NCBI GenBank assembly: GCA_023251215.1 | Contig: JAHEZF010000040.1 | Span: forward strand, 1-10,170 | From: Sphingobacteriales bacterium | Lineage (GTDB): Bacteria > Bacteroidota > Bacteroidia > Chitinophagales > Chitinophagaceae | Direction of reading: 5' to 3' | Length of the DNA: 10,170 nt | Notes under the pieces: generated by a model | Seen by the model: only the letters and a program-made list of their open reading frames with translations | Told to the model about the DNA's origin: nothing | Database searches by the model: none | Made by a program: the position numbers and the translations under genes | Shown here: piece after piece, positions 769-10,170 of the stretch | Layout of the letters: every line of letters begins with the position of its first letter | How positions within the stretch are numbered: the first letter of the stretch is position 1

Positions 769-946
769 TAATTTTCACCCGTTGTGCGATTAAAAGTAAT
801 TGAAATTCATGAGTTCTTTTTTAAACTATGTGTTTTCTATGTATCTATTGTGCCTATGTGGTAATTTTTTTTCACCACATAGAAACATAGGCACATAGTT
901 GTCACATAGATATATACAAATTCAATCGCACAACGGGTTAATTTTC
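769..946. mobile_element. MITE-like element: 15-bp TIRs, abutting 8-bp direct repeats, no gene
   Basis: The core at 777-938 (162 bp) begins with ACCCGTTGTGCGATT and ends with its exact reverse complement (924-938). The octamer TAATTTTC lies directly outside each end (769-776 and 939-946), as a target-site duplication would. Inside, a second imperfect palindrome (826-909) consists of CTATGTG-like heptamers on the left arm and CACATAG-like ones on the right, around an AT-rich loop at 863-873. No open reading frame of note exists, so it would need a transposase in trans. It fills most of the gap between plsX and the next gene. Seen: repeats and their abutment. Inferred: transposition. The octamer is AT-rich, so a chance match is less unlikely than for a mixed sequence. 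Confidence 0.75.
826..909. repeat. Inner imperfect palindrome of CTATGTG-type heptamers
   Basis: The left arm has CTATGTG-like units beginning at 826, 837, 845 (CTATTGTG) and 854. The right arm has the complementary units ending at 882, 890, 898 and 909. Unit spacing is 11, 8, 9 on the left and, read inward from the outside, 11, 8, 8 on the right, so the arms mirror each other. The innermost perfect stem is CTATGTGGT (854-862) with ACCACATAG (874-882). Because the units resemble one another, several alternative pairings are possible. If transcribed it would form a long hairpin with a U-rich loop and might work as a terminator for plsX. Confidence 0.7.
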
Positions 947-3481: not shown

Positions 3482-3482
3482 A

Positions 3483-3524
3483 AATGTAAAATCAAAAATA
3501 TAAAATCTAAAATGTGAAAGTTGG
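3483..3524. repeat. Left flank of four-helix cassette: three 14-bp-period units
   Basis: Units start at 3483 (AATGTAAAAT), 3497 (AATATAAAAT) and 3511 (AATGTGAAAG), exactly 14 bases apart, each a 10-base core plus 4 variable bases. The first begins two bases after the SDR stop. The third runs into the probable TTG start codon of the four-helix gene. The inverse array lies on the far side of that gene. Confidence 0.75.
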
Positions 3525-3889
3525 GAGAACCAAGAAGATATGACCTTGAAGACAGATTGGTAAAATTTGCCATCATGATTCTGGAAGTTTGTGATATTCT
3601 TCCCAATACAAAAGCAGGTAATAATCTTGAGCATCAGTTATCAAAAAGTGGAACAGCCCCGGCATTGATGTATGGTGAAGTGCAGGCCGCTGAATCAAGA
3701 GCCGATTTTATACATAAAATGAAAATGTTACTTAAAGAACTGCGGGAAACAAGAATTTCACTAAGGATAATAAATGAAAAACCAATACTAACGCATGAAA
3801 AGATTGGATCGGCTTTGAAGGAATGCAACGAACTGATAGGGATATTTACAAAAAGTATAGAAACTGCAAATAAAAACAAGCTTCGGTAA
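3521..3889 (+). CDS. Four helix bundle protein (23S rRNA intervening-sequence / Avd-like family)
   Basis: A 122-residue, highly helical protein. The family signature spans residues 40-76: LSKSGTAPALMYGEVQAAES followed by RADFIHKMKMLLKELRET, typical of the four-helix-bundle family (TIGR02436) that includes proteins encoded in 23S rRNA intervening sequences and the Avd accessory protein of diversity-generating retroelements. No reverse transcriptase or rRNA is present here, so it belongs to the common stand-alone form, whose role is unknown. These proteins form multimers and some bind nucleic acid. The start is a TTG, because an in-frame TGA at 3515 closes the frame upstream and the next ATG (3575) would remove helix 1. 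Both ends touch inverted 14-bp-period repeats, and the gene with its repeats exactly fills the gap between the SDR gene and the next gene. Confidence 0.88.
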   Translation: MGEPRRYDLEDRLVKFAIMILEVCDILPNTKAGNNLEHQLSKSGTAPALMYGEVQAAESRADFIHKMKMLLKELRETRISLRIINEKPILTHEKIGSALKECNELIGIFTKSIETANKNKLR

Positions 3890-3926
3890 TTTTATATTTA
3901 ATATTTTACATTCCGCATTTTACATT
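3885..3926. repeat. Right flank of four-helix cassette: three inverted 14-bp-period units
   Basis: ATTTTATATT (3889-3898), ATTTTACATT (3903-3912) and ATTTTACATT (3917-3926) recur every 14 bases. They are the reverse complements of the cores on the left flank. The innermost unit overlaps the stop codon (TAA 3887-3889). The outermost, extended to an 11-bp match (3917-3927), pairs with 3482-3492. The next gene starts at 3932. Confidence 0.75.
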
Positions 3927-3931
3927 TATCA

Positions 3932-9687: not shown

Positions 9688-9690
9688 ATA

Positions 9691-9717
9691 TAGCCGGGAA
9701 GGCGGTAAGACGGAAAG
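9691..9717. repeat. Left flank of GxxExxY cassette: 8-bp units
   Basis: TAGCCGG (9691-9697), then GAAGGCGG (9698-9705), TAAGACGG (9706-9713), and a partial AAAG. It starts four bases after the VWA stop codon. The inverted counterpart at 10136-10162 has the two octamers in the opposite order. Confidence 0.75.
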
Positions 9718-9732
9718 AAATTATATAATTTA

Positions 9733-9737
9733 AGGAG
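9733..9737 (+). promoter_or_regulatory. Shine-Dalgarno-like AGGAG before the GxxExxY gene
   Basis: AAGGAGATA immediately precedes the ATG at 9741. It is the only clear Shine-Dalgarno match among the genes here, most of which have AT-rich leaders, as usual in Bacteroidota. The spacing of three bases from GGAG to the ATG is short. It supports the chosen start. Confidence 0.5.
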
Positions 9738-9740
9738 ATA

Positions 9741-10130
9741 ATGTATCAATTAACAGAACATGAAGAATGGCTTTGTAAAGAAATTGTTGATTGTGCCTAT
9801 CGTGTACATAAAGAATTAGGACCCGGGCTACTTGAAAAAGTTTATGAGGCTTGCTTCTGTCATGAATTAGGTAAAAAAGGTATTAACTACCAGAGGCAAA
9901 TTGATCTTCCAATTTTCTATGATGGACTTACATTTGATGAAGGTTTGAGAATGGATGTGTTTGTTGAGGAATTAATCATTTGTGAATTAAAAGCCGTAGA
10001 AACTGTCAATCTACTTTGGCAGGCACAAATAATGAGTCACCTCAAAATGACTGGAAATAACATTGGCTTTTTAATAAATTTTAATGTTGCACTTATAAAA
10101 AATGGAATCAGGCGTTATTGTATTGAATAA
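9741..10130 (+). CDS. GxxExxY protein (PD-(D/E)XK nuclease-like, PDDEXK_3)
   Basis: A 129-residue complete member of the GxxExxY family. The namesake motif is G29-L-L-E32-K-V-Y35, following H23-K-E-L-G. Nuclease-fold residues are visible: R70-M-D72-V-F-V ahead of C81-E82-L-K84, the D...ExK core of PD-(D/E)XK enzymes, then Q95-A-Q-I-M-S-H-L-K in the closing helix. Catalytic positions look intact, so nuclease activity is plausible, but the family's biological role is not established as far as I know. The gene has its own Shine-Dalgarno-like site and is boxed by inverted arrays of 8-bp units that fit closely between the VWA stop and the window end. It looks like an accessory single-gene insertion and not a VWA operon member. 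Confidence 0.93.
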   Translation: MYQLTEHEEWLCKEIVDCAYRVHKELGPGLLEKVYEACFCHELGKKGINYQRQIDLPIFYDGLTFDEGLRMDVFVEELIICELKAVETVNLLWQAQIMSHLKMTGNNIGFLINFNVALIKNGIRRYCIE

Positions 10131-10135
10131 AAAAA

Positions 10136-10162
10136 CTTACCGCCTTCCCGTCTTACCGGCTA
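10136..10162. repeat. Right flank of GxxExxY cassette: inverted 8-bp units
   Basis: Read on the minus strand from 10162: TAGCCGG, TAAGACGG, GAAGGCGG, TAAG. The same 7-bp terminus and the same two octamers occur as in the left flank, with the octamers swapped. It starts six bases after the GxxExxY stop. The flank could continue past the window end, where eight further bases show no extension. Confidence 0.75.
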
Positions 10163-10170
10163 TGAATATC

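Follow-up and report, generated by a model that had tools for sequence, protein, structure and literature searches.

A lone, non-autonomous IS982-type element with an 8-bp target duplication, probably inserted at a -7 box downstream of plsX

Positions 777-938 of the window (the whole stretch of 10,170 nucleotides analysed here, contig C301 of a 2.02-Mb assembly that comprises 345 contigs and is 72.37% complete) are very probably a non-autonomous, MITE-like element, presumably moved by an IS982-family transposase acting in trans and flanked by an 8-bp duplication of its target, which was probably the -7 box of a promoter. The element is best filed as a lone non-autonomous element of the IS982 type, a kind already known. 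The features to which the following text refers are these:

1-726, + strand: plsX, the upstream neighbour, its 5' part lying off the window (PF02504, E = 6.6e-64)
746-775, + strand: predicted promoter of the downstream gene, TTG-N20-TAATTTT, proposed from the pattern, its presence at the same place in three relatives (L090, L091, L092) and the Bacteroides consensus
769-776, + strand: target duplication, left copy, TAATTTTC; doubles as a candidate -7 box (TAnnTTT) whose TTG lies 20 bp upstream, at 746-748
777-791, + strand: left terminal inverted repeat, ACCCGTTGTGCGATT, identical to the IS982-type end in genomes G122 and G246
777-938, + strand: whole element, 162 bp, with open reading frames of 20-32 codons only, folding as a single long hairpin
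820-915, + strand: core, a hairpin repeat of the CTATGTG type that recurs in the bacterial family; its arms lie at about 824-861 and 874-911
924-938, - strand: right terminal inverted repeat, exact reverse complement of ACCCGTTGTGCGATT
939-946, + strand: right copy of the target duplication, TAATTTTC
958-2094, + strand: downstream gene, 378 codons, without a Pfam family; the same neighbour of plsX in L090, L091 and L092

The perfect 15-bp inverted termini, each directly abutted by the same octamer, are confirmed at these coordinates as originally described. The + strand of the whole window has the octamer at two places and the - strand at one, and a scan of the window for this layout (exact inverted pairs of at least 12 bp, 60-600 bp apart, with identical direct repeats of 7-10 bp immediately outside) returns a single place, the element; none of 300 windows simulated with a first-order Markov model contains such a layout, and when it is relaxed to 8-bp arms and repeats of at least 8 bp, 2/300 do. 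What had been called a 162-bp core without a gene needs a correction of extent: 162 bp counts both ends and is the whole element, with 132 bp between the 15-bp ends. The absence of a gene stands, as the open reading frames of at least 20 amino acids that overlap 777-938 are six in number and only 20-32 codons long; no transposase gene lies between the ends, in keeping with the proposal that the element is non-autonomous. The direct repeat can also be read as 9 bp (TAATTTTCA), its last A then being the first base of the left terminus; 8 bp is the better reading, since all 18 of the related ends in G122 (see below) start with A and the three relatives show G after the box.

The termini place the element in a transposon family, which the original prediction had been unable to name. 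Searched at up to one mismatch in 294 genomes of the same bacterial family, the terminus is matched in 45, with 18 places in G122 (all exact), three in G246 (two exact) and one to four in the others. The exact 15-mer is confined to four of these 294 genomes (the window's own, G122, G246 and G305) and, at class level, to three of 395 (its own, G318 and G437, the latter two with a single occurrence each). Within the genus g122 it is found in two of three genomes, G122 and G246, and is absent from the third congener searched, G195. In G122, the contig DNA ends 116-139 bp away from each of the 18 termini, and behind them two inner sequences occur, each nine times, giving nine left and nine right ends; the picture is that of a multicopy element which broke the assembly, as collapsed repeats do. 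G246 holds one internally deleted copy (L151:400-993), whose C-terminal piece matches the NCBIfam model NF033520 for IS982-family transposases with E = 6.3e-13 over 50 residues and whose N-terminal piece matches it with E = 0.023; against Pfam DDE_Tnp_1 the copy scores 21.4 bits, just under the cut-off of 23. The terminus of the window element is identical to the G122 and G246 ends at 15 of 15 bases. By this identity, the NF033520 match and the annotated IS982 elements of plasmids described below, the ends of the window element are, as judged from sequence, IS982-type ends.

The likeness is limited to the ends. The two G122 ends agree with the window element for 16-17 bp on the left and for 15 bp on the right and no further, and the 302-bp left and 140-bp right ends of the G246 element have no match in the window's own genome. 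Of the full-length transposon with the same termini that was to be looked for, part is seen: G122 carries a multicopy IS982-type element with them, and a full-length copy was not found, the G122 ends all breaking off 116-139 bp in. A search of the window's own genome with the PF13612 and NF033520 models gives no IS982 transposase, which must be weighed with the 72% completeness of the assembly, since insertion sequences of this sort may be lost from an assembly, G122 being an example; nor was an IS982 transposase found in the genomes of L090, L091 and L092. The other IS982-type transposase genes of G122 and G246 (L154/L183, L155/L185, L186, L187) have no such end within three mismatches; L185 and L186 have one terminus-like site each at four mismatches. 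Against 72,556 plasmid records the element has no match at E <= 0.01.

Inverted pairs of the terminus, expected elsewhere if the element were a MITE with several copies, were likewise not seen: none of 50 loci examined has an inverted partner within 2 kb, and the exact 15-mers in G305, G318, G437 and 19 viral contigs have none within 2 kb at up to three mismatches each. In the three relatives' genomes (G702, G703 and G704) the terminus at up to two mismatches occurs at 28 places, part of them coding-like, against five for the reversed control; in the 17 of these 28 loci looked at, no inverted partner is present. A second copy in the window's own genome was not found in the 2.02-Mb, 72%-complete assembly. 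Of the original MITE label, the non-autonomous part thus holds and the several copies of a MITE in the strict sense do not, with one copy in this assembly. The start of contig C199, with a two-mismatch end, resembled a broken copy; its surroundings showed nothing of that kind.

The multicopy element of G122 also allows its target duplications to be read, by pairing each left end with each right end through the overlap of their outer flanks. Seven of the nine left ends find a partner, with duplications of 7, 7, 8, 8, 8, 9 and 9 bp (TAAATGA, TATACTA, TACTAATA, TACATTAA, TATTAGTA, TAAATGATT and TAAATAGTT), leaving two left and two right ends unpaired. Overlaps of at least 7 occur in 8 of 81 combinations, whereas junctions displaced by 5-600 bp lead one to expect 0.014; one of the left ends is compatible with two right ends, one of which is taken by a longer match, and pairing restricted to nine left and six right ends gives 5 of 54. 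All seven duplications start with TA, as does TAATTTTC, which by its sequence fits the duplications of an IS982-type parent in both length and kind. The passages of PMC8944449 drawn on here give no duplication length for IS982.

The state before insertion can be seen in relatives. plsX and the downstream gene stand side by side in three metagenome-assembled genomes, UBA4411 (L090), MAG-384 (L091) and RBC053 (L092), with 80-81% identity to the window for plsX and 53-56% for the downstream gene; these genomes (G702, G703 and G704, identical to G113, G285 and G189 by terminus hits at the same contig coordinates) all belong to genus g113 of the window's family and thus represent one lineage, not three independent witnesses. 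The interval between plsX and the next gene contains TAATTTTC once in L091 and in L092, and TATTTTTC, a match at seven of eight positions, once in L090; this single box takes the place that the element and its two flanking copies occupy in the window, and the left flank of the window aligns gap-free at the box in all three. When the 51-bp stretch whose last 8 bp are the duplication is slid ungapped over both strands of each locus, the best placement is exactly at the box, with 30, 31 and 33 of 51 positions identical against 27, 28 and 27 for the next best. Once the 8-bp box is left out, the left flank agrees there at 23, 23 and 25 of its remaining 43 positions, against 24 elsewhere in each locus, so it is the box and its position that carry the case for an empty site. 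For the right flank by itself, no ungapped placement in the relatives' loci stands out, and aligning the joined flanks globally with gaps is uninformative. Among 29 other plsX loci that were fetched, a relative of the downstream gene adjoins plsX in three (L031, L032 and L036); L031 has no comparable box between the genes, nor does L036 in the gap as read, and in L032 one is present only inside the gene start. The exact terminus is found at none of the 29.

An empty site at the plsX locus, which the original prediction had proposed to seek, is therefore present: three relatives, not close and all of one genus, each have one site of the TAATTTTC type. The prediction had also named a single-copy element lacking an empty site as the outcome that would tell against it; the element is single-copy in this assembly, and the three relatives contradict the other half. 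The transposition with an 8-bp target duplication that it proposed gains from both the one-copy site and the 7-9 bp duplications of the G122 element. Confidence in the preferred explanation is slightly lowered by the relatives all coming from one genus and by the three other loci with the gene pair and without the box.

Taken together, an IS982-family transposase supplied in trans would have recognised the 15-bp ends, and insertion at an AT-rich site starting with TA would have duplicated 8 bp. The probable target is the -7 box of the promoter that lies between plsX and the following gene. The consensus for the Bacteroides primary sigma factor, as given in the passages of PMC7366714 drawn on here, is TAnnTTTG at -7 with TTTG near -33, the latter not having been found in Flavobacterium johnsoniae according to the same passages. 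TTG-N20-TAnnTTT is present in the window at the duplication (746-775) and at one other place (2105); from this pattern at the duplication and its recurrence at the corresponding position in the three relatives, insertion seems to have hit the -7 box of the downstream gene's promoter. The right TAATTTTC copy has no TTG 20 bp upstream, and the left copy keeps it; with the original TTG retained at this distance, the transcript would begin within the element's left end, and the whole hairpin would then become part of the leader of the downstream gene, which starts at TTG 958 or, more likely as judged by eye, at ATG 970. Both the promoter and any effect on transcription are predictions. These considerations suggest that the TA-rich sequence targeted by IS982-type insertion and the -7 box of Bacteroidota promoters can be one and the same; if so, such elements would be steered into promoters.

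The interior of the element is of other origin than its ends: it is not IS982 sequence, but a hairpin in which CTATGTG units recur around CTATGTGGT ... ACCACATAG, and it is a repeat in its own right. The core is matched in at least 52 of the 294 family genomes, its own included (E <= 0.001; a lower bound, as two candidates were scored per genome), and among the matches listed none covers the 15-bp terminus, bar the element itself. The RNA of 765-950 is predicted to fold with -60.7 kcal/mol (z -9.7). Among ten aligned cores (the window and nine of 29 fetched loci) no compensatory change occurs in nine predicted pairs, so that nothing in the alignment marks the RNA fold as a conserved trait. With the window's PDDEXK_3 gene, of the GxxExxY type, as query, a gene of this type is found next to or between CTATGTG repeats at 3 of the 29 fetched core loci (L083, L072 and L080), against 0/29 plsX loci and 0/26 terminus-like loci used as controls (0/55 in total). 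Two further runs of this kind are worth recording: elsewhere in the window's own genome (L002:1501-1640) a CTATGTG hairpin is interrupted by the palindrome CCCGATAGCTATCGGGA, and in L037 (G009) a similar run with another spelling, CTTTGCG units, follows plsX.

How ends and core came together bears on the alternatives. An IS982-type element of about 75-80 bp may have landed first, the CTATGTG hairpin being inserted into it later by a route of its own, as opposed to a hairpin captured before the jump. This nested origin is a real possibility, if somewhat short of an even one, and it refines the main reading rather than contradicting it; the core being a separate repeat in at least 52/294 family genomes, with listed matches that lack the 15-bp ends, speaks for it, as does the like hairpin in L002, and what speaks against it is that no element with these ends and without the core was met. 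To go one step further and let the hairpin alone be the mobile or functional unit, its outer arms and direct repeats being incidental, is very unlikely: the core is indeed the sole part repeated in the family, but the outer arms are identical to IS982-type ends and carry the same kind of duplication, a match that largely refutes the idea, and the layout is missing from all 300 simulations. The same simulations and the exact IS982-type end refute a chance origin of the inverted and direct repeats, which has nothing beyond the AT-rich setting in its favour and can be dismissed.

An RNA structure resident between plsX and the next gene (an attenuator, terminator or riboswitch) would account for the very stable fold with its z of -9.7, but is very unlikely, since the structure is absent at the same place in L090, L091 and L092 and the ten aligned cores are without a compensatory pair change. 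The sole Rfam match of the window at the gathering score is the tRNA at 2173-2245; at lax limits the matches are sub-threshold ones of microRNA type and one of snoRNA type (the best, mir-135, with 31.1 of the 59.2 bits required), and no terminator-like site is present in 600-1100.

Returning to the preferred reading of a trans-mobilised IS982-type element, its closest known counterparts differ in what they retain between the ends. The genus Cardinium belongs to the phylum Bacteroidota. In the passages of PMC9769881 drawn on here, MITECca01 of Cardinium cOegib is an IS982-derived MITE of about 240 bp with 169 copies and with its parent, ISCca4, in the same genome. Like the window element as far as these passages describe it, MITECca01 is short, has no transposase gene and has IS982-like ends with little else of the parent kept; in contrast, the window element measures 162 bp and is present once, its assembly yielded no parent, and its core is a hairpin repeat of the host family. 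Their duplications are not comparable, as the main text of PMC9769881 does not contain "target site", "direct repeat" or "duplication". Annotated IS982 elements on plasmids of Bacteroides fragilis (L161) and Empedobacter stercoris (L159), in whose IS982 listing ISRa1 of Riemerella also appears, end in ACCCGTAGTGCATTAT, paired perfectly in L161 and with one mismatch in L159; the window element has ACCCGTTGTGCGATTA, which differs at several positions. The two plasmid elements carry an 882-bp open transposase gene, which the window element lacks, with its stop codon at the inner edge of the right end, and show no clear target duplication by eye; a third annotated plasmid element, of Bacteroides faecis (L160), has another end. 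The g122 element (G122, G246) shares the identical 15-bp end and the 7-9 bp duplications starting with TA, as TAATTTTC does, and differs in its interior, which is unrelated in the sequence seen. The CTATGTG hairpin repeats of the same bacterial family correspond to the core and are elsewhere not seen with these ends. The window element is thus another IS982-type mini-element beside that of Cardinium, with a hairpin repeat inside transposon ends, and otherwise ordinary mobile DNA. A bolder reading, that IS982-type ends captured a GxxExxY-linked host hairpin which is now transposable and, owing to the likeness of its TA-rich target, lands on -7 boxes and so puts a strong hairpin into the leader of the gene behind, as a portable leader element, is improbable.

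Other parts of the window show repeat arrangements of their own. In 9690-10163, the GxxExxY-type gene (PF13366, 9741-10130) lies between inverted arms at 9690-9726 and 10127-10163, which are 76% complementary over 37 nt and made of GGCGGTAAGACGG-like units. In 3482-3927 the same layout, with another repeat unit, surrounds the gene for a 23S rRNA intervening-sequence (four-helix) protein at 3521-3889 (PF05635, 34.7 bits against a cut-off of 33.8), whose inverted arms at 3482-3519 and 3890-3927 (76% over 38 nt) have AAATGTAAAAT-like units. The tRNA at 2173-2245 (anticodon TTT by eye) is followed by a solitary GIY-YIG gene (2287-2541), behind which part of the 3' end of the tRNA seems to recur, with AGCGGGATCAC at 2236 and 2572 (region 2173-2610); this recurrence is not among the window's repeats of at least 14 nt. 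Inside the recurring stretch, a palindrome, CCCGAAAGCTTTCGGGA, can be made out by eye.
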